Assembly (NCBI GenBank): GCA_943704415.1
Contig: CALSCO010000241.1
Location: forward strand, 1-20,161
Source: Parvularia atlantis
Lineage: Eukaryota; Opisthokonta; Rotosphaerida
DNA: 20,161 nt
Direction: 5' to 3'
Shown: in pieces, positions 2,144-19,973 of the stretch
Layout: each line of letters starts with the position of its first letter
How positions within the stretch are numbered: position 1 is the first letter of the stretch
Made by a program: the position numbers and the translations under genes
The notes under the pieces: model-generated
The model's database searches: none
The model's input: the letters and a program-made list of their open reading frames with translations, nothing else
Told to the model about the DNA's origin: nothing

Positions 2144-3070
2144 TCACTCGGCCGTGACGTCGTTCCCGTCCGCGCCCTCGTTCTCGGCCGCGAGATGCGC
2201 CATGAGCTGCGTCGCCACAGCCTGCGCCGCAGGTGGGGAGATTATTCCCTCGTACTCTTCCGCCCTCGCGCGTGCGTTGCGCGCACGTTCGCCTTCGCTG
2301 CCGCCGTCTGCAGCTCGTCCACCTGCGCCTGGAGTGCGTCCGCGATGCCCTGGGTCGCCTGGCGCACAGTGCATGCGCGCGTGTGAGCTGCATCGCGCGG
2401 AGAGGGCGGTCGTGGCCGCACCGCGTCGTGGTCCGCGCGTTGCCGCTCGAGCTCGGCGCGCAGCGACTGCACCTCGACCTGCGCCGTGTCTGTCGGCAAC
2501 GCGGAAGGGGCGCAAGGGACACGCACCCCGAGCTCGGCGATGCGCTGTGCTGAGGCCTGCTGCTCCTCGGCGTGCCGCTGCTCGGCCTGCCGCTGTGCCG
2601 TCTGCGTGCGCGCGCGAGCGGTCGTCGGCATCGCAGCGCAGTCTCGCGCGCGCACGCACGCACGTTCAGCGCCTCGATCTGCGCGAGCAGCTCGTCCTCG
2701 CGCGACGCCTTCTGCACGGCGGCGTCACCTGCAGGCACCGCGGGCGAGTTGCTGCTTCATCGTCAGCACCCGCCGGCCGCTCACACCGCTCATACCGCCT
2801 CACCGCTGCGACACGGCCGGCGCGGCCGGCTTGTGCGGCGCGGTGCGGGGCGGGGCGGGCGCGTCCTCGGCCTTGCGCTTGACGCCGGCGCTGCTGTTGG
2901 CGTGCAGCCTGCGGCGAGCCTGAGTCGGGTGGTGCGTGCACCTCACGCGGCGCGCACCGGTCGAACACGTTGCCGGCCTGGCTCGGCCCGAGTGCCGTGC
3001 GTGCCGGCTGCTGCTGCGTCGTGCTGCCGGCGACGACGTTCTCCTTGGCGCGGACAGCGGCGGTCTTCAT
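2144..3070 (-). CDS. Unrecognised coiled-coil protein with KEN and D-box motifs
   Basis: Seven exons: 3070-2958, 2908-2804, 2751-2664, 2601-2527, 2478-2422, 2358-2287, 2221-2144; introns are 48-65 nt, all junctions keep frame, product 195 aa. I do not recognise the family. The N-terminus carries a KEN box (residues 9-11) and an RTALG D-box-like motif (24-28), closely resembling the cyclin B destruction box. A VFDRLH segment and a basic KRK patch (possible nuclear signal) follow. From about residue 89 to 188 the protein is a Gln/Ala/Glu-rich helical coiled coil. Small size, degrons and coiled coil would suit a mitotic or replication regulator (geminin-, shugoshin- or securin-like), but no family signature is visible, so this is inference. 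Five of six introns start GTGCG; intron 2 starts GTGAGG. It diverges from the glycosyltransferase with 43 bp between start codons. Confidence 0.82.
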
Positions 3071-3113
3071 TCGAGCGAGTCGTTGCAACGGTCGCCGTCA
3101 CCGAACCAGCCGC
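3071..3113. promoter_or_regulatory. 43-bp divergent promoter, coiled-coil gene / glycosyltransferase
   Basis: Only 43 bp separate the two opposed ATGs. A perfect 10-bp palindrome, CGTTGCAACG, sits at 3081-3090. Core promoter elements for at least one gene must lie here or within the neighbouring gene's first exon. Confidence 0.6.
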
Positions 3114-3246
3114 ATGGCGCGCAGTGCGATGCGCATCGCGCTGTGGTGCGCCGTGGCGCTGCTGCTGCTCGCCGGGTACCGCCTGGCGACGTCCGAGCCG
3201 CGCGCCGCGGACGACATCGGCGCGGCGATCGGCGACGGCAAGAGCG

Positions 3247-3282
<36 letters not shown>

Positions 3283-4505
3283 ACGGCGGGGCGGCAAGAG
3301 CGGCGGAGCGGCGCGCGGCCGAGGTCGAGGCGCTGATCGCGCGGGCCGAGGCGGTGCAGGCCGACGCGCACGCGGCGCACGCGCACGACACGGCCGAGCG
3401 GCTCAGCCAGCAGCACCACCGCGAGGTGGAGGAGTACGGCGCCGAGACGGTGGAGGACCTGTCGGAGCACGTGCACCCGCACTGCGACATCCTCGCCATC
3501 GTCCCGACCCTGCCCCGCCCCGGCGGCGTCGACTACCTTTCGCGCGCGCTGCGCTCGATTGTTGACGGCGTGGCCGAGGCGCGCGCGGCCGAGGGCGAGG
3601 CCTCGTCGCTGACCGTGCGCGTGCTCGTGTACAAGCCCGCGCCGGGCCAGCACAAGGCGTTCGAGGAGCAGCGCAACTTTTGGATCGAGTCGAACAAGGG
3701 CATGCGCGACGCGCAGCGCGCCAAGATCAGCTTCACCTTCGCCGACCTCGGCAAGCGCCGCATGCTCGACCCCTTCCCGGACCGCCCCGAGCCCGACCAC
3801 CGCAACAACCCCGAGGCCGTGCCCGGCCACGGCGCGCGCCAGCAGAACTGCGACATGCTCTCGGTCGTGCGCTACGCCCTACAGTCGCACGCCTTCCGCT
3901 ACATGCTCTTCCTTGAGGACGATTTTGTCGTGTGCCCGCGCGGGTGGCTGCGCATGGAGCGCGCCCTCGCGCAGCTCGTGGCCTCGCGTGAGCCGCCGCT
4001 GAGCGCGATTGAGTCGGACGACGTGCTCGAGTTCTTGCTCTCGCCCGAGGCCGATGCGGGCGCGCTGCCCGAGTTTATCAAGCCGGACGTGCGCGGGGCC
4101 CTGGCCGCGTTCATGGGCGTGCCCGTGGCCGAGCGCATCCAGCTTGCACCCGTCGTCGCCAAGCAGCTCGCCACGCCCTTTGCCCTGCTCAAGGTCTCGT
4201 ACGGCATGAACGGCCTGCTCTACCACCGCCAGGACGTCAAGGGCTTTGCCGACTTTGTCCAGCGCAACCTCGACCGGCTGCCCATCGACCTCCTCGTCGA
4301 CGCCTATTTCTTCCCCACGCGCGCCGAGCCCGAGCGGCAGCACATGCTCCTGCGGCCGGCTGTGCGGGTCAACTCGGTGCTGATGGAGCACATCGGCCAG
4401 GTGTCGACCTTTGTCGAGCGAAACGAGGCCAACTTCCGCCCGGCCTTCCCGCGCTGCGATGCCTTCGTGACCGTCACGCCGCCGTTTGTTTCGCTGCACT
4501 TGTGA
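3114..4505 (+). CDS. Type II membrane glycosyltransferase, GT54 (MGAT4)-like
   Basis: Single-exon 463-aa protein. A short cytosolic N-terminus and one membrane anchor (about residues 7-24) make it a Golgi-type type II membrane protein. A poly-Gly run (46-55) and a charged stem follow. The catalytic part begins near 125 (DILAIVPTLPRPGGVDYLSR), resembling the first strand of GT-A transferases. EDD at 268-270 in YMLFLEDDFVV fits the metal- and nucleotide-sugar-binding DxD motif. Late motifs LPIDLLVDAYF (389-399) and VNSVLMEHIG (419-428) resemble the PID-W-L-L-D and PSLFQHVG segments of N-acetylglucosaminyltransferase IV. The related GPI GalNAc-transferase PGAP4 is the main alternative. Donor and acceptor cannot be told from sequence. 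The start is the ATG at 3114; an in-frame ATG five codons on is also possible. No intron. Confidence 0.8.
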
Positions 4506-4574: not shown

Positions 4575-6128
4575 TCACGAGTCCGGTGCGGGCCGCTTCG
4601 AAGCCGGCGCCGGCTCGCCCCGCGGCACCACACGGTCCAGCGGCTCGCCCCACGCGCGCTGCATCCCGTCGAGCAGCTCGGCCGTCGGCGGCCACTTGGC
4701 AAAGCCGGGCTCGTTCTGCAGCACAAACACATGCGAGTCGTGGATCGCGCTAAAGTACATCTCGGCTGCAGCGCGCGCGGTCAGCGCCACACGCACACGC
4801 CAGCGCACACCGCACGGGCACGCACAGTCGTCGACGATGTGCTGCGACCCGTTCTTGTAGGTGTGCGAGCGTGCCGACACGACGCGGTCGGCGCGCCGGA
4901 AGGGCGAGGCGAGCATCTTGCTGATCGCGGGCGTGGGTGGGTTGACCCACTCGGGCACGATCACGCAGAACGAGAGCGGGTTCTTGGACTTGCCGAGCAG
5001 CTGGGCACCACGCGCGTCAGACGCCACTGCGCAGCGCAAGCGCGCGCGCGCGCACGTGGTCGATCCGCTCGGCCATCGCGTACATCGCCTCTTCGTTGAA
5101 CGGCGGGTTGGCCTCGACCGAGCCCTCGACCAGGTCCAGGTCGAAGAACGACCCGAGCGAGCCGAAGAACCGGTCCTGCGCCGGGCGCCTGTCAGACCAT
5201 CGCGACACCGGTCACCGGCTGGCGCGCGCACCGTGTCGGCAAAGGCCGACCCGTACGCCGGGAAGTAGCAGTTGAGCGGCGACGCAAAGCACTCAAAGTC
5301 CACGCCCAGCGCGCTCTTTCGGCCGCGGGCGCGCATGTGGGCACGCTCGGCCCGCGCACCGCGCCCGCGCGCAAAGCCACCTTCAAGTACTTGAAGACGG
5401 ACTCTGGCAGCGCCGCCTGGAACCCGGACCCCTCGTAGCTCTTGGCGCCGAAGAGCGTCTGGTACCTGCACCCGCCCGCTGCGTGAGCCGCGACGACCTG
5501 CCCGCCCGCCGCCCGCACCGGCGCAGCAGACACCACACGCGCGGCAGGAACAGCGACTCGTCGTCCTCGTTCTTGCGGCGGTAGAGCTACCGCGGCGGGC
5601 GTGGGCGCGGCACAGCCAGCCGCCGCGCGGGCGCACCTTGCGCAGCTTGGACCAGTGCCGGATTGCGAGCACGAGCTCCGGGTTGTCCTTGTACGTCATG
5701 CGCACGAAGCGGTCGTAGAGCACCGTCTTGAAGTCGTTGCGCGCGATCGGCGGATCAAAGGTGTTGGTCGTTTGCTGCAAGGCACAACAGTCGGTCGGCC
5801 GCGCTAGCCGGCAGGAAGCGCCGCAGCGCACCCCACGCGGCTGCAGCTCCTGCATCTGCCGCAGCTCGATGTCGGCCGCGTAGTTGAGCCCCGAGATCAC
5901 GTCGGCCACGGCAGGCCCGGCGATGACCTTTCGGCGCGCGTGCGCGTCAGCAGCACCAGCGTGGGCCTCAGGCACGATCGCACCTTGACCTGCACGCGCA
6001 CGTCCTCGCGCAGCTGCGTCAGCCGCTCGAGGTACGTCTCACGCGAGCTGTTGCGCCCCGTCGCGTCGAGCCAGGCGAGCGTGCCAGACGCCGCGCTCTG
6101 TTGCGTCGCCGGGCGCATCAGTGTGCGT

Positions 6129-6211
<83 letters not shown>

Positions 6212-8149: not shown

Positions 8150-8239
8150 TCACGTAAGTTGGTTGTCGCCGTCGATGAGCAGGCCGTTGCGCATGAGGTA
8201 GGTGATGATCATCGCCGTGTTCATGACCAGCAGGACCAT
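8150..8239 (-). CDS. Candidate 29-aa membrane micro-ORF or last exon
   Basis: A minus-strand frame reads MVLLVMNTAMIITYLMRN and ends LIDGDNQLT before TGA at 8152-8150. Of its 30 codons, 28 end in G or C, the profile of true exons here, while the opposite-strand frame has poor third-position GC. The hydrophobic run of about 16 residues could form one membrane helix. The frame stays open upstream of the ATG for ten codons, so this may instead be the last exon of a gene whose earlier exons lie at 8250-8450 and overlap the RasGRP-like gene's 5' end. I could not place such an exon in phase. No family recognised. Confidence 0.45.
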   Translation of the reverse strand: MVLLVMNTAMIITYLMRNGLLIDGDNQLT

Positions 8240-8373
8240 GTCATTGCGCGACCTGCTCTTCCTCTGCGTCCATCAAAAGCACTGCACGTCTGCCTCAGCA
8301 ACCAGCGCGCAGCGATCGCCGCAGGTGGCCTGCACGTGGCATGGACCAAAAACTCAGCCACGCACTTTGCGCG

Positions 8374-11300
8374 ATGGCGGCGGTGCGGCACCCGCCTCGC
8401 TGTCACGATACTCTGGCTCACGGCGCGCGCGGCGCGGCAGCAGCTGCTGCTGGACGAGGCGGCGGCAGCGGTGGCGGCGGCGGCGGGGCCTGACGAGGCC
8501 GTGGCGCCGGCCGCGCTACCAACGGCCGATTTGGTGCTGTACATGCTCGAGTGGACCGCGCTGACACCGGCCGCGCTGTGGGCGGCGCTGGCCGAGGACG
8601 TGGCCGCGCGGCACGCGCCGGCGCTGGCGCTGGCCGTGTTCTGGGCGCGGCACCACGCGCGGCACTTTCTCGAAGACGACGAGCTGGGCGAACGGCTGGG
8701 CGTGGTGGCGACGGCGCTGCGGGCCGAGGCTGCTGCTGCTGCTGCTGCTGCTACTGCAACAGCAACAACAACATCGCTCGACATGCGGCAGATGCTCGTG
8801 CAGGCGCTCGTGCGCGCGGCCGACCGTCTCGCAAGCCTCCAGTCCGAGTCGTCGACGACGCTGGCCGACCGCCTGCGCCGCGGGCCTCAGACGCGCGTCG
8901 TGAGCCAGCTCGACTCGCCCGTCGTGCCCGCGCCCGTGCTGTTCCTCGAGCCGGCCTCGCCCGGCGGGCCGTCGCCGCAGCAGCTGGCCGTGCCGGTGAG
9001 TGCCTACGTGCCGTCGTCGCTGTCGGCGTCGCCCGGGCGCAGCGACTGCAACCCGGAGACGTCGCTCACGGGCGTGCAGTTCCTCGACATGCCCTCGTCT
9101 GTGCTCAGCCTGCACCTGCAGCAGATGCAGCTAGACGTGTACCGCGCCCTGCGCCCGTCAGACTTTGCCGGCTGCATCCGCAGCAAGAGCGGCACGCTCG
9201 GGCGCAAGTCGGCCGACGAGCTGCTCCAGCCGCTCGACCACAACGCGATCGCGCGCCGCTCGAGCAGCGTGCGCGCGCACCAGAACGCCTTTGTGCGCAA
9301 CGTGCGCCTGTTCAACCAGGTGCGCGCCGCGGACGCGCTCCAATTTGGCGTGCTGAACAAGTGAGGGCGCGGCAGATGGCGTTCTGGGTGGTGCAGATGA
9401 TCCTGAACGAGGCCGCGCTCAAGGACCGCGTGCAGATGCTCGCCAAGTTCATCAAGGTCGCCGTGCGGCTGCGCGCCGTGCACGACTACAACTCGCTCTT
9501 CGCCGTCTACAGCGGCCTGACGCACAACGCCGTCTTCCGGCTGCGCCACACCTTCGCGGCCCTGCCGCGGCGCTACCAGATGTCGTGGGAGCTGCTCACG
9601 TCATTCCTCTCGCCCGAGAACAACTTTGCGCGGTACCGGCAGGAGCTGCGCGACAACGCCGGTGCGGGAGTGGGGTACGCTGGCGCGCCTCTCACGCGTG
9701 CGCCCGCAGACCGCAGCATCCCGTACGTCGGCCTGCTCGTGTCGGACCTCGTGCACTCGAACGACGCGTTCCGCAAGCAGGACGTGGCCAGCGCGGGCGG
9801 CGAGCTCAACTTAGCCAGGCTGGCTGCGCTGGTGCGGCTGCGCCTAGCGCCCTCGCACTCGCTGCTGCTGCTGCTCATGGCGCGACCGCAGGCGCAGCCC
9901 ATCCGCCAGGCGCTTGTCGCGCAGCGCCACTTGCAGCCGCAGCCGGTGGAGCAGTCGCTCTGGAACATCCTGCACCTGGCGATGCATCCGGTCGTCTCGG
10001 AGCAGGACATGGACAAGCTGTCGTACCTGCGCGAGCCGCGCGAAGGTGCGGCGATCGCCTGCTGCCGCAGGTGCTGACAGCTGGCCCGCGGGCCCGGCAC
10101 CCAGCCACGCCGCAGCGCCAGGTGCCCGAGGACAAGTCGGCCTTCCAGGCGTTCCTGAGCCACATGGCGACGGGGCTCTACGGTGCCGCGCGCGCTGCCG
10201 TGTGCGCGCGTGGACTTGCTGAGCGACACGGCGCAGGCCTGCACGCGGCCGCCAAAAAGTCCGACGCAGGCCACGGCACGGTCGACGCCGACGAGCAGGC
10301 GGACGACGTCAGCGTCGAGATGGCCGTGCAGGAGCTGTGCGACGCCATCTTTCGTGAGGCACGCACAGTGCGACGCCCAGACGCGACACGCACGCTGACG
10401 CGTACCGTCGGCGCGCAGTTTGACCTTGACCACTCAGATTCGCTCAGCATGGAGGAGTTTGAGAACGTGGCCACGTTCTTCCCGTTCCTGTACAGCTTCC
10501 AGTCGCTCGACAAGAACAAGGACGGACTGATCACGCGCGGCGAGCTGTACAACTTTCTGCTGCACGGTTGCCCCGCGCTTGCGGGTTCCTGCGCGCGGGC
10601 GTGGCGCTGAGCCGCGGCGCGCAGCGCGCAAGACCAATGTGTGGGACTCGCTGCACAAGCTGTTCCAGCACTCGATCATGCCGCCGGGCTCGCTCCGCTG
10701 CGACGTCTGCAGCAAGCTCATGTGGAAGAGCCTCGTGACAGGGTCGTACTTTCGCTGCATCGACTGTGGCATGGCCGTGCACCGGGTGCGTGCGCACGCA
10801 CTGCCATGCGTGGTCGGCGACTGAGCTCGGCCGCAGCACTGCCGCGCGGCCATGTCGAGCGCGTGCGAGCCCGAGAAGACCTCGGCACAGCTGTTCTCGG
10901 GGCTGCGCAGTGGCCTGGGCTCGGTGCTCGGCGGGCTGTCGTCGTCGCTCAGCATCGGCGGCCCGTCGTCGCAGGGCGACCTGCTCAGCCCGGCGTCGTC
11001 GTCGTACTGGCTGCGTGGGCAGCAGCAGCACCACCAGCCGGCGCAACAAGTGTCACACGTGGTGCGTGCCGCGTCGGCGTGAGCGCGACTGGTGCTGACC
11101 CTGCGCTGCGCAGCGGACGACGAGGGCGTCGCTCGACACGGCGGTGCGTTGCCGCCGACTGTGCCTCATGCGCACGGCTGACGCAGGCGTGCAGCAACTG
11201 ATCGCGCACGAGGCCGACGCCGTCTCGATCGCCTCGTCGACTGCTTCCGCCGCGACCGCACCCGCGCCGCTGCCGCCTGGCACACTGCTGGCCGCGCCCG

Positions 11301-11826: not shown

Positions 11827-12935
11827 ATGGGTGAGCGCAAGGTCTTGAATAAGGTGCGCCTTTGCCGCGCCCGCCGCCGCCCGCCCACCGCCGCCGCCCA
11901 CCGCCGCGTGCACGCACGCGCCCGCAGTACTACCCGCCGGATTTCGACCCGGCCAAGATCCCGCGGCGCAAGCGGCCGCTCGATGCGCAGGTGCGCCGGC
12001 GCGATGTGTGCCGTGTGCCCGTTTTGCCTGATCGGCGGATGCGCAGCACATCGTGCGCCTGATGGCCCCGTTCAGCATGCGCTGCAACACGTGCGGCGAG
12101 TGGATCTACAAGGGCAAGAAGTTCAACGCGCGCAAGGAGAACGCAATCGGCGAGAAGTACCTGTCGATCCAGATCTTCCGGTGCGCGCTGCGCGCAGTCG
12201 CCTCGCTCTCGTGGGCGCTCACGTCCGCGCAGCTTCTACATCAAGTGCACGCGCTGCGCCGCCGAGATCACGTTCAAGACCGACCCCAAGAACGCCGACT
12301 ACACGTGCGAGCACGGCGCGTCGCGCAACTTCGAGCCGTGGCGCGACGCCGAGGACGCGGTCGAGGAGGCCAAGCGCGAGCGCGAGAAGGAGGAGGAGAA
12401 CAACCCGATGAAGCACCTCGAGAACCGCACGGCCGAGACCAAGCGCGAGATCGACATCCTCGACGCGCTTGACGAGATGCGCTCGATTCGCGCGCGCCAG
12501 GAGCGCGTTGGCATCGACGCCGTGCTGCAGCAGCACGCGGCCGAGGACGTCGCGGAGCAGGTGGCCGAGGACGAGGAGGACGAGCGCCTGGTGCGGCAGG
12601 CGTTCGGGGCGCGGCGGGGCGACGCGGGCGGCAGCGGTGGTGGAGGCGGAGGTGGCGAGGACTACGACGACGAGCAAGAGGTGATCGAGGAGATCGATCT
12701 GTTTGAGCTCGTCAAGCCGCGCGGTCCTGCGTCTGCTTCGTCCGCGGCAGCGTCGTCCTCCTCGTCTTCGTCGTCCGCAGCACCCGCCGGCAAGCCGCCC
12801 AAGCCTGCGCCGCCCGCCAAGCCGCAGCTGGCCGCCGCGACGACCGCGCCGGCGCCGCCCGCCAAGCCCGCGGACAACAAGCGCAAGGCCGCAGCCAACC
12901 CGCTCGGGATTGTCGTGAAGAAGAAGGCGGTGTGA
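11827..12935 (+). CDS. YJU2: YJU2/CWC16 (CCDC94) pre-mRNA splicing factor
   Basis: Four exons: 11827-11853, 11928-11990, 12047-12180, 12233-12935; 308 aa. Family role: Yju2 joins the activated spliceosome with the Prp19 complex and promotes the first step, contacting the branch helix. Seen: the diagnostic start [17 protein letters not shown], the Zn site with C43-x2-C46 ([23 protein letters not shown]) and C80-x2-C83 ([18 protein letters not shown]), the [11 protein letters not shown] segment, then a charged helical region, a Gly run, an acidic patch and a low-complexity Ser/Pro/Ala/Lys tail. It follows the RasGRP-like stop by only 47 bp on the same strand, the only tandem junction in the window. 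The first exon is nine codons, which fixes the start. Confidence 0.96.
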
Positions 12936-12997: not shown

Positions 12998-14492
12998 TTA
13001 CAACCTGACCTCCTGCGGGTGAGCAGGCGTGAGCAGGGCGCTTGCTGCGGGGTGGCGTTGAGCGCGCGCGCACACACCTTGTCCTTCGGGAAGCCGCCGC
13101 CCGCGGTGCCCTCCTCGGCGTCGTCGAGCTTGAGCGTCATCGAGCGCATGATGTCGGTCTGGTTGGGGCTCCACAAGAGAAAGACGCCGATGCACATGAC
13201 GGCGAACCTTTCATGGGCGCGGCGTGAGCTTGTGCGCAGCACGGAAAGAAAGCGCGCGCACCCGCAGATCACGTTGAGCACGTCGCGCGCCGACTGCACC
13301 TCGGCGCCCTGGAAGCAGATGAGGTTCGCGACGATCGTTGTTGTCGTGAAGAAGACGTAGTACACGGGCGACACGGCCGCGGCCGGGAAGAGGTCGAGCG
13401 CCTGCGCGCGCACGCGACGCGGTGTGAGGTGCATGTGCGCCGCGATGTGCGCTCGTGTGCACCTTGTTAAGGTAGTTGAGCTGGAAGACGATGCCGAAGA
13501 CCATCGCGAAAAAGAAAGCGTACGTCGCCGGGTAGAAGAACTGGTTGTTGCCGCTGACCGTGAGCTTGATGGCAACGCCGACGCTGCGCAAGCACGAACG
13601 CGTTGAGCGGGGCAAAGGCGACGGCGCAGCACAGCCCGCCCGCGCACCCCTTGCTCGCGATCACGAGCAGCGAGCCGCCGAACGAGCACACCGTGATGTA
13701 CACGAGCATGTTGCGCTGGCCGTAGCGCGGCGCGAGCTTCCACAGGAAGTAGGCCATGACGGCGATGCCGGTAAACATGTACGCCACGAACGCTGCCGCC
13801 GCACGCGCCGGTCAGCCGCCCCCCATCGCAACTGAGCGCGTGTGCAACGCACCGGGCTGCGAGATGTAGAACACGATCTCGTTGATCGACTGCAGGTCGC
13901 GCTCGTGCGGCGCGTGCAGCACGATGACCGTGGTGCCGATGGCGCACAGGCCGCAGCCGATCTTGCCGCTGCGGTCGAGGCGCTCGCCGAGGAAGAGCGA
14001 TGCGAGCACGGCGCTGCGTGCGGCGTCAGTGCGACGCGGCAGTCGAGGCGTTGGCGCACCTGATGACGACGCTGAGCGCGCCCATCGGTGTCACTAGGAT
14101 CGCGGGCGCGAACGAGTAGGCCGCGAAGTTTGCGACCTCGCCGACGGCCACTGCGCGACGCGCGACGTGAGCGAAACGCGGCCGTGACGTGGCGTCGCAC
14201 GCACTGAGGAACGTGCCGCCCCACCAGATCGGGTTGAGCAGGAAGGCGTAGCTGCTGCCGGTCCCTGCGCCGCGCCCGCGCCGCTTCAGCTGCCGGTATC
14301 TCACCGCGTGGGCGGCGCCGCACCACTGCCCTCGGACGTGCTCAGCCCGTGCTTCTTGACGACGAAGCTGGTGCCGATGCTGCGCGCGTCCCGGCATGAG
14401 CGGGCCGGCGCGGGCGCTGCGCGGCACGCGTGGGCGACGCACCTCACGGCGCTGCCGGCCGCGAGCACGAAGCCGAGCAGACGGTCGTCCAT
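12998..14492 (-). CDS. NIPA-family magnesium transporter, copy A
   Basis: Ten exons: 14492-14443, 14379-14324, 14264-14205, 14150-14060, 14013-13853, 13792-13648, 13583-13463, 13401-13262, 13207-13078, 13012-12998; 322 aa. The NIPA (non-imprinted in Prader-Willi/Angelman) family are multi-pass membrane Mg2+ transporters of the DMT superfamily. Family motifs seen: [83 protein letters not shown] and [26 protein letters not shown]. About nine hydrophobic segments span the protein. The C-terminus is short and charged (KDKEVRL). The last intron starts GTGTGT and the last exon codes only four residues. It is an inverted paralogue of the gene at 14835-16317, with stretches identical at DNA level including introns. 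Confidence 0.93.
13784..14094 (-). repeat. 311-bp tract identical to copy B (left arm of inverted repeat)
   Basis: Reverse-complementing this interval gives exactly 15203-15513. It covers the end of exon 4, a 46-nt intron, the whole 161-nt exon 5, a 60-nt intron and the first 9 nt of exon 6. One mismatch at 14095 ends the tract, followed by 35 more identical bases. Two further identical tracts lie at 13391-13468 (78 bp) and 13256-13371 (116 bp). Confidence 0.95.
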
Positions 14493-14834
14493 GGCTGAAG
14501 TCGGCCCGTTCCCAGCATGGCCGCTTTCGTGACGTCACAGGACGAGCGGCGGCGCGCTGGCGGCTGTCTGCTGCCTTGGCAGCGAGCTGCTGCGCGTGTC
14601 GTGCGCTTGCTGCTGCCTTGCTGCGTGCCTTGCGCGTGCCTTGCGCGTGTGCTGCGCGTGTGCTGCCGTGGAGAGAGGGGGGCGCACGTGACAGCAGACA
14701 GACAGCACGCAGAGTGTCACTTTTGGGGCTGTGATCGCGCCCGTGGCACCTCGCCGCTCAAACCGTGCGCACGCGCAGCCGACACCCGCCTCGCGCGCGC
14801 GCGCGTGCATGTGCTGCGCGCGTTCAAGACAAGG
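14493..14834. promoter_or_regulatory. Divergent promoter between the two NIPA genes
   Basis: This 342-bp spacer separates the two opposed NIPA start codons. A perfect palindromic CRE-like site, TGACGTCA, lies at 14530-14537, about 38 bp upstream of copy A. Further right (about 14560-14670) are imprecise short repeats of ctgccttgc/gcgtgc type. I see no open frame with exon-like codon use. Sharing one spacer may co-regulate both transporters; this is inference. Confidence 0.55.
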
Positions 14835-16317
14835 ATGGACGCGCGCATCGCGGGATTCTGCCTGGCGCTGCTCTCGAGCGTGCTCATCGGCACCAGCTTC
14901 TGCGTTAAGAAGTACGCGCTCAACCACTCCGAGGGCCATGGTGCGCCGCCCACCGCGCCCACCACGCCCCCACCCGCGCGCGCGCACACGGCCCGCCCAA
15001 CGACGCGCGCTACAGGCACTGGCGAGTCGTACCGCTTCCTGCTGAAGCCCGTGTGGTGGGGCGGGACATTCTTGAGTGCGTGCGACGCCACGTCACGGCC
15101 GCGTTTCGCTCACGTCACGTCGCGCTGGCGTCGCATGTGCGCGCAGTGGCCATCGGCGAGTTTCTCAACTTCGCGGCCTACTCGTTCGCGCCCGCGATCC
15201 TCGTGACACCGATGGGCGCGCTCAGCGTCGTCATCAGGTGCGCCAACGCCTCGACTGCCGCGTCGCACTGACGCCGCACGCAGCGCCGTGCTCGCATCGC
15301 TCTTCCTCGGCGAGCGCCTCGACCGCAGCGGCAAGATCGGCTGCGGCCTGTGCGCCATCGGCACCACGGTCATCGTGCTGCACGCGCCGCACGAGCGCGA
15401 CCTGCAGTCGATCAACGAGATCGTGTTCTACATCTCGCAGCCCGGTGCGTTGCACACGCGCTCAGTTGCGATGGGGGGCGGCTGACCGGCGCGTGCGGCG
15501 GCAGCGTTCGTGGTCTTCCTCGTGCTTTCGCTGCTGTTCATCGTGCTCATGCTCTGGCTCGTCGCGCCCAAGCACGGCCGGCACAACATGCTGGTGTACA
15601 TCTCAGTGTGCTCGTTCGGCGGCGCCCTCCTCGTCATCGCGTGCAAGGGGTGCGCGCACGCACTTCGCCCCTGGCACTCGGCTCACCTGCGGCCACAGCG
15701 TCGGCGTCGCCGTACGCGTCAGCCTCGCCGGCAACAACCAGATGACATCGCCGTACACGTACGTCTTCCTCCTGTGCATGCTCTTCGGCCTGCTCTTCCA
15801 GCTCAACTACCTCAACAAGGTGCACACGAGCGCACATCGCGGCGCACATGCACCTCACACCGCGTCGCGTGCGCGCGCAGGCGCTCGACCTGTTCCCGGC
15901 CGCCGCCGTCTCGCCCGTGTACTACGTCTTCTTCACGACAACAACGATCGTCGCGAACCTCATCTGCTTCCAGGGCGCCGAGGTGCAGTCGGCGCGCGAC
16001 GTGCTCAACGTGATCTGCGGGTGCGCACATCCGGGCACGTGGCTGCGGCCGGCTCACGCCCTGCGCGTGCCAGCTTCATCGTTATGTGCATCGGTGTATT
16101 TCTCGTCTGGGGCCCAAGCCAAAAAGACTTCTCGCTTGCGAACCTCTGGGCGTGGACGTCCAGCACCAGCACCAGCGTCGTCAGCTCAAGCAGCAGTGGC
16201 CTGGGCGGCGCCACCAGCGCCGACGTGATCCAGATGGACGCGCTGCATGTCATGAAGGACGACGACGACGAGGAAGCGGGTCTTCTCACTGCTGCTGCCG
16301 CTGCGGGCCATGTTTGA
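14835..16317 (+). CDS. NIPA-family magnesium transporter, copy B
   Basis: Eight exons: 14835-14940, 15016-15075, 15147-15237, 15284-15444, 15505-15649, 15699-15819, 15881-16020, 16074-16317; 355 aa. It has the same NIPA motifs as copy A ([67 protein letters not shown]) and the same exon lengths in the middle of the gene. Differences: it lacks copy A's first intron, and its C-terminal tail is longer, with a Ser-rich stretch and a DDDDEE acidic patch instead of copy A's short charged end. Predicted multi-pass Mg2+ transporter; the different tails suggest different trafficking or regulation, which is inference. Confidence 0.93.
15203..15513 (+). repeat. 311-bp tract identical to copy A (right arm of inverted repeat)
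   Basis: This is the partner of 13784-14094 in opposite orientation, with 311 of 311 bases identical including two complete introns. Shorter identical partners lie at 15814-15891 and 15911-16026. Diverged sequence separates the tracts, so the similarity is patchy rather than uniform. Confidence 0.95.
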
Positions 16318-16380: not shown

Positions 16381-18860
16381 TCACGACAGCTTGAGCGCAG
16401 AGCTCGTCTTGGGCGCGCGCGCGGCCTTGCGCTTGCGCTCGGCGGTGCTCTCCGGCGCCAGGCCCGCGTCGCCGATGATCTTGACGTTGCCCCGCGCCGT
16501 CGCCTTGCTCACGATGTCCTGCAGCTTGGCCTTGACGTGCTTGTTGCCCAGCCCCGGCCGCGACCTGTGCGGAGCTGCTCAGCAGCAAAGACTGCGGTTC
16601 GGCGCGCGCACTTTTCGAGCCGCTTCATGTCACCAGCTGCGCGTCGCTTCTCCTTGGCTTTTTGCGTGTGCTTGGCCTTGATCCGCAGCCGCTTCTTCTC
16701 GGCCGCCGACATCTCCGTCTGGCCCTGCAGCGCGCCGTCAGCGCACGCGCACGTCCGCAGTGCGAACCGCGCGCACCGCAATCACCACGCGCTTCTTCCG
16801 GTAGATCTCTTCAGGCGCGAGCCGGTTCGCGTCCGAGAACGCCGTCGGCACCTTCTCTTCCACAACCATCGCGGGCACGTTCGAGACGATCTGTGCGCGC
16901 CGAAGCTCCGTCAGCCCCGGCATAAAACACCCGCGCCCAACGCACCTGCATCTCGGCCTGCTCCGGCAGCGCGGGCGTGAAACGGAAGTTGGTGAGCGCG
17001 TCCAGCCGCTCACACAGCGCCATGTACTGCTCGCGGATGCGCACGTGGATCTTCTCCGTCTCGGACTTTGGCTTGGCCGCCAGCGGGTGCAGCTCCTGTG
17101 GCGCCCCGTCGCGCGCCTCGTCCGGCTTGCCACCGGCCTTCTGCTGTTGCTTCAAGTACGCCTCCTCGTAGATCTCGCTCAGCGACTTCTTGGACTTGTC
17201 GTGCTCGAGCTCGGCGGCGGGCTTGGCGCCGGCGCGCGCCTTGTCGTCGTCGCTCTTGCGCACGACGTCGTCAAACATGCGCTGGCCATTGCGCCGCCCC
17301 GCGTGTAAGTCGCGTCTGCCATAGCTCGCGTGAGACGCACGTCGAGGATGCGCTTTTTGATCATGTCCTCGAGCGACGATGTCACCTGCTCCGTGATCAG
17401 CGGCACGCCCTTGGTCGCCTGGTCAAACTCGAGCACTTCCTCGAGCAGGCTGTTGACGGGGCGGTCGCGCGCCGAGGCCTGGGCGGCGCCGTGTTCAGCC
17501 GTGGAGGCGCGTACACGCCGGTCGTCGCGCACCTCGCCCATCAGCTGCCACGAGCGCTTCTGCAGGTTATCCTCCTCGAGCTGCGCAATCGTCTTGCGGA
17601 TGTCGCGCAGCTTGCGTTCGTACTTGGACAGGCCTGGTGCGAGCGCGAGCGTCAGCGGGCGGGTCAACGGGCAGGCTTGCCGACGCCGCCACCTTTGGCC
17701 TCCTCGTCGTCCTCCTCGTCGTCTTCGTCGTCAAGGATGCGCCGGCGCTTGCCTGGTGTCTCGTCGTCGTCGTCGTCGTTGTCGTTGTCGTCGTCGCCAT
17801 CCTCGTCCGCGTCAAGCCCGTCGTCTTCGTCGGCTGCGGCGGCGGCATCGACCGCCTGCGCCACACGCGACGGTCGCCCGCGCGCCTTGCGCTTCTCTGG
17901 CCGCGGCGGCTCGAAAAAGTCGCGGTAGCTGATCTCCGCAGCCGACTTGGGGCCACCGTCTTCGTCCTCGTCGTCGTCCTCGTCTCCCTCGTCGGCGCCT
18001 TCTTCGTCGGGCACATCTGCGCGCGCTCGTCACACGCAGCACACTCTGGCTTTGGCCACGCACCCTGGAAGTAGTCGATCTCCTCCTCTTCTTCATCCTC
18101 GTCTGCGTCGTCTGCGTCGTCGCCCTCGTCGCGCTCGACGTCGTCCTCGTCGCGCTCGACGTCGTCCTCATCCATCTCCTCACGCTCGACGTCGTCCACA
18201 AACTTGTGCATCTCGTGCAGCGAGAAAAAGTCGTCGTCGATCGCGCTTGTGCTCTTGCTGCGGGCCGCTGCCGGCGCCTCTTCCTCTTCCTCCTCCTCGT
18301 CTGCTTTGTCATCTTCATCGTCGTCGTCCTCGCCTTCGAGCTCGGTCTCCTGCTCGTCCTCGTTCTCGTCACCGCTCTCGTCCTCGTCTTGCTGTGCAAG
18401 CGCGCTCCCGTCGTCGTCGTCGCCGTCGTCCTCCTCTTCTGCCGGCGCACGCTCGGCCTCCTGCGCGGCGGTGCAAATGTCAAGACACGCACACGCACAC
18501 CACACCGTGCCGCACCTGCTCCAGCGCCGCCACATCGTCGCGCAGCCGCGCCAGCAGCGGCCGGTGGCGCAGCTGCAGCTCCTCCCAGATCTGCTCGCCA
18601 TCGAAGCCGTCCACGAGCAGCGCCGGCAGCTCGCCAAACGCGGGCCACCCATCCACGCCTGCCGATCGTCTCAGTCGCGCGGCTTACACACGCCTCGCCC
18701 GCGCCCGCGCACCGGCGTCGTACAGCCGCTTGACCACCACCAGCAGCTCGCTCGACGCCGCCGCGTCTGCGCCCGCCGCCGCGCGGCCCAGCAGCACCAG
18801 GGGCGCCGCGACGAGCCGCGCCGCGATGCGCTGCGCCTCCTCGGGCCACGTGGCAGCCAT
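16381..18860 (-). CDS. MPP10: MPP10, U3 snoRNP / SSU processome subunit
   Basis: Ten exons: 18860-18713, 18658-18516, 18460-18064, 18016-17669, 17633-17533, 17478-17341, 17281-16946, 16890-16777, 16724-16612, 16564-16381; 673 aa (human 681). Family role: Mpp10 forms a complex with Imp3 and Imp4 on U3 snoRNA and is needed for 18S rRNA processing in the nucleolus. Seen: N-terminal FDGEQIWEELQLR, a long Asp/Glu-rich middle, DDDFFSLHEMHKFV, DYFQD, ISYRDFFEPP, then the conserved core LSKYERKLRDIRKTI, WQLMGEASARDRPVNSLLEE, VPLITEQVTSSLEDMIKKRI, FDDVVRK, NFRFTPALP, VSNVPAM and a Lys/Arg-rich C-terminus. Intron 4 is only 35 nt with a GTTGAC donor. Intron 5 (54 nt) is stop-free and divisible by three, but removing it restores the conserved spacing. 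Its start lies 28 bp from the esterase start. Confidence 0.94.
18125..18196 (-). repeat. 21-bp tandem repeat encoding an acidic DDVERDE motif in MPP10
   Basis: Two identical 21-bp units (18125-18145 and 18146-18166) are followed by a third, diverged copy. They encode repeats of Asp-Asp-Val-Glu-Arg-Asp-Glu in the acidic region of MPP10. This looks like recent expansion by slippage within a tolerant disordered segment. Confidence 0.85.
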
Positions 18861-18888
18861 GGCCGCGTGTCACACTGTCGAAAGTCGA
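18861..18888. promoter_or_regulatory. 28-bp divergent gap, MPP10 / esterase
   Basis: Only 28 bp separate the MPP10 start and the preferred esterase start (18889). An alternative esterase ATG at 18859 would overlap the MPP10 ATG within the palindrome CCATGG (18857-18862). The intervening codons have poor third-position GC, so the downstream start is favoured. Confidence 0.5.
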
Positions 18889-19973
18889 ATGCTCGCCCTG
18901 AACCAGCTCGCGACGAACGCGGCGCTCTCGGCTGCGCCGGTGCTGTTTGACGACGCGACGCTGCTCGAGACGCGCACGATCAGCGCGCAGATGGCGCGGG
19001 CAGCGGCGGTGCGCATGAAAGTGCCGCCGGGCGTGCGCGTGCACGATGGCGACGCGGCGCCGTCGAGCATCACGCCGGGCCATCGTGTGCCGCTGCGCGT
19101 GTACGAGCCGATGGCGACGGCGGGCGGGGCGGGCGCGGTGCCGTGCGTCGTCTTTGTGCACGGCGGTGGGTTTGTGCTCGGCACGCTCGACAGCGCCCAC
19201 GCCATGTGCCTCGCGCTGGCCGATCGCGCCGGCAGCGTCGTCATCTCGGTCGACTACCGCCTCGCGCCCGAGCACGCCTTCCCACTGCCGCTGGAGGACT
19301 GCTACGACGCCGTGCGCTGGACCGCCGACCCTGTGCAGCTGCGGCGCCTGCGCATCGATCCGGCGCGCATCGCCGTCGGTGGCGCGTCAGCCGGCGGGTG
19401 CCTCGCCACGGCCGTGGCCCAGCTCTGCCGCGACCGCCCCGGCAGCCCCGCGCTGTGCTTCCAGCTGCTCATCTATCCCGTGACCGACAGCGAGCTGACG
19501 GCGGGCGCGCGTGCCGCCACCGCCACGCCCGTCCTAACGGGCGACTCGCTCGTCAACATGTGGCGTCACTACCTCGGCCCGGGCGTGAACCCTGCCGCGC
19601 CGCCGCCATACGCTGCGCCGCTGCACACGCCGAGTCTTGCAGGTCTGCCGCCGGCGTACATCGAGCTGTGCGAGCTCGACCCACTGCGCGACGAGGTGCG
19701 TTGTGCGTGTTTGGAAGGCACGCACACTCATCGAGCAGGGCATCGCCTACGCGCAACGGCTGCTGGGCGAGGGCGTGTCAGTCGAGCTGGTGCTGCGCCG
19801 CGCGTGCCCGCACGGTGCGTGTGCCCGCCTTTCGCCTGTGTCTCCTAACTCACGCGCGTGCGCAAGGCTTCGAGCTGTATGGCCCGAGGACCGAGGTAAC
19901 ACTGCGCGCCGTCGAGGACCGCGTGCGCGTGCTGCGCCAGGCGTTCGACCCCGCGCTGCTCAGCCGGCTGTAG
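18889..19973 (+). CDS. Alpha/beta-hydrolase, hormone-sensitive-lipase (GDXG) family
   Basis: Three exons: 18889-19695, 19739-19814, 19867-19973; 329 aa from the preferred start (339 from the ATG at 18859). The family hydrolyses carboxyl esters of small acyl chains, lipids or drugs. Seen: the oxyanion-hole motif HGGGF (91-95), VDYRLAPEHAFP (121-132), the nucleophile in G-A-S167-A-G, Asp264 in CELDPLRDE and His294 in CPHGF, so the Ser-Asp-His triad is complete. The intron between CPH and GF places the catalytic His at an exon end. No signal peptide or anchor is obvious, which suggests a soluble cytosolic enzyme; substrate unknown. Length suits bacterial-type HSL esterases. Introns and codon use match the neighbours, so any bacterial origin would be old. 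Confidence 0.92.

Follow-up and report, generated by a model that had tools for sequence, protein, structure and literature searches.

How can two neighbouring genes be identical to the letter in some stretches, introns included, and yet in others resemble each other hardly more than shuffled sequence? The question is raised by two NIPA genes of Parvularia atlantis, found in a window of 20,161 bp that is the whole of contig C54 in a draft assembly (16.25 Mb, 616 contigs) and whose GC content of 0.69 compares with 0.666-0.714 across 18 other sampled stretches of the genome. According to the original prediction these genes form an inverted, head-to-head pair, and this is indeed how they lie, copy A being read from 14492 to 12998 and copy B from 14835 to 16317:

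12998..14492, minus strand: NIPA copy A, hand-made splice model with 10 exons, 322 aa, PF05653 match
14493..14834, no strand: interval between the start codons of A and B, 342 bp, GC 0.70
14835..16317, plus strand: NIPA copy B, hand-made splice model with 8 exons, 355 aa, PF05653 match

Both promoters are presumably contained in the 342-bp interval. Open frames flanking the pair, at 772-1557, 4575-5975, 8551-10077, 9585-10610, 12053-12935, 16811-17278 and 17947-19848, have matches to known families (ubiquitin and UBA domains, PCIF1_WW, RasGEF, EF-hand, Saf4/Yju2, Mpp10 and Abhydrolase_3), and the frames 2970-4505 and 8159-9364, when scanned for families, gave no match. The hits to Saf4/Yju2, Mpp10 and RasGEF, combined with short introns, mark the genome as eukaryotic. 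Perfect dinucleotide arrays occur in the window as well, (CT) with 32.5 copies at 1604-1668 and (GT) with 40 copies at 6131-6210.

The PF05653 profile is matched nearly end to end by copy A (profile positions 2-290 of 295, E 4.9e-96) and by copy B (positions 4-289 of 295, E 6.4e-95), and both can thus be assigned, from sequence, to the NIPA family, with a putative role in magnesium transport. The solved NIPA2 chain (PDB 9z6n) is identical to copy B at 125 of 293 positions, over B residues 7-299. In our hand-made splice models the pair has short introns (46-75 nt), and seven introns of copy A match all seven of copy B by position. Copy A has two extra introns without a counterpart in B, one near each end (14380-14442 and 13013-13077), reflecting either gain in A or loss in B.

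Only five exact inverted identities of at least 20 nt are present in the window (311, 116, 78, 42 and 35 bp), and all of them fall within the NIPA pair. The longest three had already been predicted, with the whole introns inside two of them, and proved exact at their coordinates: the 311-bp tract (13784-14094/15203-15513), which by the splice models encloses two whole introns of 46 and 60 nt, the 78-bp tract (13391-13468/15814-15891), which by the same models encloses one whole intron of 61 nt, and the 116-bp tract (13256-13371/15911-16026). To these we can add a 42-bp tract (14164-14205/15075-15116), consisting of 41 nt of intron and one exon base, and a 35-bp tract (14096-14130/15167-15201) that a single mismatch separates from the 311-bp tract. 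The tracts make up the following patches, listed with the diverged block that separates the second from the third:

14164..14205, minus strand: patch P1 in copy A, 42 bp, exact, mostly the first part of intron A3
15075..15116, plus strand: patch P1 in copy B, in intron B2
13784..14130, minus strand: patch P2 in copy A, 347 bp with one mismatch (311- and 35-bp tracts), introns A4 and A5 identical
15167..15513, plus strand: patch P2 in copy B, with introns B3 and B4
13256..13468, minus strand: patch P3 in copy A, 213 bp (78- and 116-bp tracts), intron A7 identical
15814..16026, plus strand: patch P3 in copy B, with intron B6
15514..15792, plus strand: copy B, diverged block separating P2 from P3 (B residues 144-219), holding intron B5

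P3 has three mismatches, all silent and all situated between its 78-bp and 116-bp exact tracts. The strong divergence claimed for both gene ends is there as well, and the block 15514-15792 is strongly diverged too. When the coding sequences are aligned, the longest identical run spans 205 of 963 columns, a length reached in none of 20,000 shuffles (shuffle maximum 58), so that chance is excluded.

The introns can be compared in the same manner. Three of the seven homologous pairs are 100% identical (46, 60 and 61 nt), and a fourth, A3/B2, has an identity of 0.76, its first part being identical and the remainder differing by insertion/deletion. One pair has an identity of 0.64, with a shuffled mean of 0.58 and maximum of 0.65, and two have 0.53-0.55, with a shuffled mean of 0.55; for comparison, 56 non-homologous intron pairs gave an average of 0.59 and a maximum of 0.71. 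Alignment of intron B5 with A6 revealed no similarity above the shuffled level. As for copy A exon 6, which had been described as flanked by differing introns, our models agree on one side, where intron A6 is diverged, and disagree on the other, where intron A5 is identical; the exon numbering of the original prediction may differ from that of our models.

Silent sites, which had been proposed as the place to compare tracts with their surroundings, separate the two clearly, with a dS (Nei-Gojobori with Jukes-Cantor) of 0.03 (P2) and 0.12 (P3) inside and 0.55-0.68 in the diverged blocks. In full, dS is 0.033 for P2 (15167-15513) and 0.117 for P3 (15814-16020), as opposed to 0.676 in the N-terminal block (14835-15075), 0.563 in the middle block (15514-15813) and 0.548 in the C-terminal block (16074-16317). 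Since each patch value counts one codon that straddles the patch edge, the patches proper contain one (P2) and three (P3) silent differences. We also counted the codons that encode the same residue in both copies, excluding M and W, and took the random expectation from the codon usage of the pair itself. Inside the patches (here 15167-15513 and 15793-16020) 6 of 134 such codons differ, where 46.9 would be expected at random, whereas outside them 26 of 88 differ, against an expectation of 28.5. The outside value is at the random level, and silent sites are therefore saturated outside the patches; inside they are nearly untouched. The contrast has a Fisher p of 2.8e-7, for borders that were themselves derived from the same alignment. 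A test that uses no borders considers the longest run of identical silent codons, 67 of 222, which 21 of 200,000 shuffles reach; by itself this run test is moderate evidence.

Letter-for-letter identical stretches, introns included, in otherwise diverged copies are the usual mark of gene conversion. Patchy ectopic conversion, as put forward in the original prediction, finds support in identical introns and silent sites that lie beside ones diverged to about the random level, and we prefer it because no other reading that we considered explains this juxtaposition. Judged from the sequences, ectopic gene conversion has very probably acted between two old inverted NIPA paralogs, in at least two, and probably three, later events. 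An old head-to-head duplication would have given rise to the two genes, which would then have diverged until their silent sites were saturated. In later repair events short stretches would have been copied from one gene onto the other (i.e. interlocus conversion), replacing exon and intron sequence alike and leaving patches of about 42 (P1), 347 (P2) and 213 bp (P3). At the least P2 and P3 would represent such events, with P1 probably a third. Sequence would have passed between the neighbours by homologous repair, in which a broken copy was most likely mended by synthesis-dependent copying, either on a single chromatid or across sister chromatids. P2 holds one mismatch over 347 bp and P3 three over 213 bp; P2 may be the younger patch, or P3 may combine two events, the counts being too low to choose between these options.

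Donation from a third copy was considered and rejected: in a DNA-level search of the assembly, which passes over simple repeats and highly frequent words, only the A and B loci match. Distant NIPA-like exons are found, when compared in translation, on contigs C312, C469 and C227. Scans of viral and prokaryotic sequences with single-protein queries, whose reach is close relatives, returned none.

One may also read the mosaic as a maintained state. Recurrent conversion would hold two transporter core blocks identical, while selection, or divergence past a homology threshold, would shield the gene ends and B residues 144-219; crossovers in the patches may in addition have inverted the segment with the two gene starts; and the outcome, if true, would be two transporters with common cores and separate variable modules. 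Taken jointly, these parts make a doubtful proposition.

Conversion between the two paralogs could in principle have followed a different route from ordinary break repair, through a hairpin formed by the two arms of the inverted repeat or a switch of template from one arm to the other during replication. The geometry would suit such an exchange, since the copies are inverted neighbours and 1,108 bp separate the two exact arms of the 311-bp tract. We nevertheless consider it unlikely, as no sequence feature sets it apart from ordinary break repair, and conversion is also reported for direct and for unlinked copies (PMC3199776, PMC3966223).

In a draft where this contig is one of 616, identical tracts might be a product of assembly, in which similar tracts of both copies were merged into one sequence that was then used twice. 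Such merging would, we infer, need near-identical tracts to begin with, and could not turn diverged introns into identical ones. Furthermore, silent mismatches remain at 15202 and at the three P3 sites between the tracts, and unique flanks bound the 42-, 78- and 116-bp tracts. An artefact is therefore very unlikely.

A further explanation involves no copying at all, and assumes that selection acted on the sequence, either through conserved protein cores or through an overlapping or RNA element. In its favour, P2 is the block best conserved with respect to NIPA2: A and B share 80 of its 81 residues, and agree with NIPA2 at 46 (A) and 47 (B) of the 81 (57-58%). P3 is ordinary in this respect, with 55 of 56 residues shared between the copies and 23 of 56 in each agreeing with NIPA2 (41%), which is no better than the N-terminal block, where the copies differ freely (38 of 56 shared; 24 in A and 21 in B agreeing with NIPA2). 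In the middle block the copies share 39 of 76 residues (23 in A and 25 in B as in NIPA2), and in the C-terminal block 13 of 24 (5 in A and 9 in B). The idea that the patches simply are the conserved core is thus half borne out, P2 coinciding with the core and P3 not. Since NIPA2 matches the patches at only 57-58% and 41%, protein constraint, on these comparisons, fails to explain an A/B identity of 98-99%, and least of all the identity of silent and intron sites. A scan of the window with Rfam found no family at gathering score. Altogether, selection on the sequence is a highly improbable explanation.

GC-biased conversion was looked at through the GC content of third codon positions, which inside the patches is 130 of 136 in A and 132 of 136 in B, and outside them 163 of 171 in A and 175 of 205 in B; copy A shows no difference between inside and outside, and nothing was concluded.

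A whole-gene dS of just 0.32 between A and B might suggest that the pair stems from a single duplication, recent and covering the entire gene, after which the parts beyond the patches diverged very fast. The chance of this is close to negligible: in those parts silent sites differ as often as random drawing would give and most introns do not align, identical introns sit 50-300 bp from diverged ones, and two introns of copy A are absent from B (present models). For so patchy a pair, the whole-gene value would mislead if taken as an age.

Elsewhere in the same genome, no exact repeat exceeds 35 bp in 20 sampled stretches beyond the window, 186,292 bases in all, low-complexity and overlapping matches being set aside, and among the top two repeats listed for each of these stretches the sole inverted one measures 20 bp; this background speaks for conversion. 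Two kinase pairs, one inverted and one direct, which were chosen by eye among the matches listed, have no exact repeat of at least 20 bp. Kinase pairs free of patches count against the conversion reading, but two pairs say nothing about frequency. Among other repeats, stretch L025, one of the less GC-rich of those sampled, contains an inverted pair (2300-2380/4030-4110) of 81 nt, 83% alike and about 1.65 kb apart, that may mark the two ends of a mobile element. At the start of contig C600, positions 2-1346 of stretch L033 consist of direct repeats that have diverged to about 66-68% identity.

Our literature search joining NIPA, magnesium transporter and gene conversion found no description of such a case. 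Adjacent inverted duplicates with mosaic conversion that takes in introns are already on record, in Capitella Dlx genes and in Caenorhabditis paralogs. A review (PMC3924818) gives estimates of conversion tracts from 50 to several hundred bp, a range that the NIPA patch sizes of 42-347 bp fit, and warns that a tract inferred from sequence may not correspond to one event. Dlxa and Dlxb of Capitella teleta are closely linked inverted duplicates (PMC3199776), mostly divergent and mosaic in their conserved part, with a converted stretch of 150 bp that reaches into an intron; other inverted pairs are listed there too. They belong to a different gene family and lie tail to tail, whereas the NIPA genes lie head to head, and their identity covers part of one intron as opposed to three whole introns here. 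In Caenorhabditis, conversion between neighbouring inverted genes is likewise described, for example for the paralogs hsp16 and hsp70, and one survey cited in PMC3966223 has short introns converted in 15% of detectable events; the hsp16 modules, however, are reported as 100% identical throughout with diverged flanks, unlike the patches inside the NIPA genes. GOT1p1 and GOT1p2 of Tigriopus californicus (PMC3728101) resemble the NIPA pair in showing ongoing conversion, with islands of high divergence between regions of low divergence, but their sequenced part has no introns and several populations serve as support, while the NIPA pair comes from one genome. The NIPA genes thus add an example to a well-documented process rather than a new principle. 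Theirs is an unusually clean case for a single pair, with letter-identical introns beside introns of little or no similarity and with saturated silent sites.
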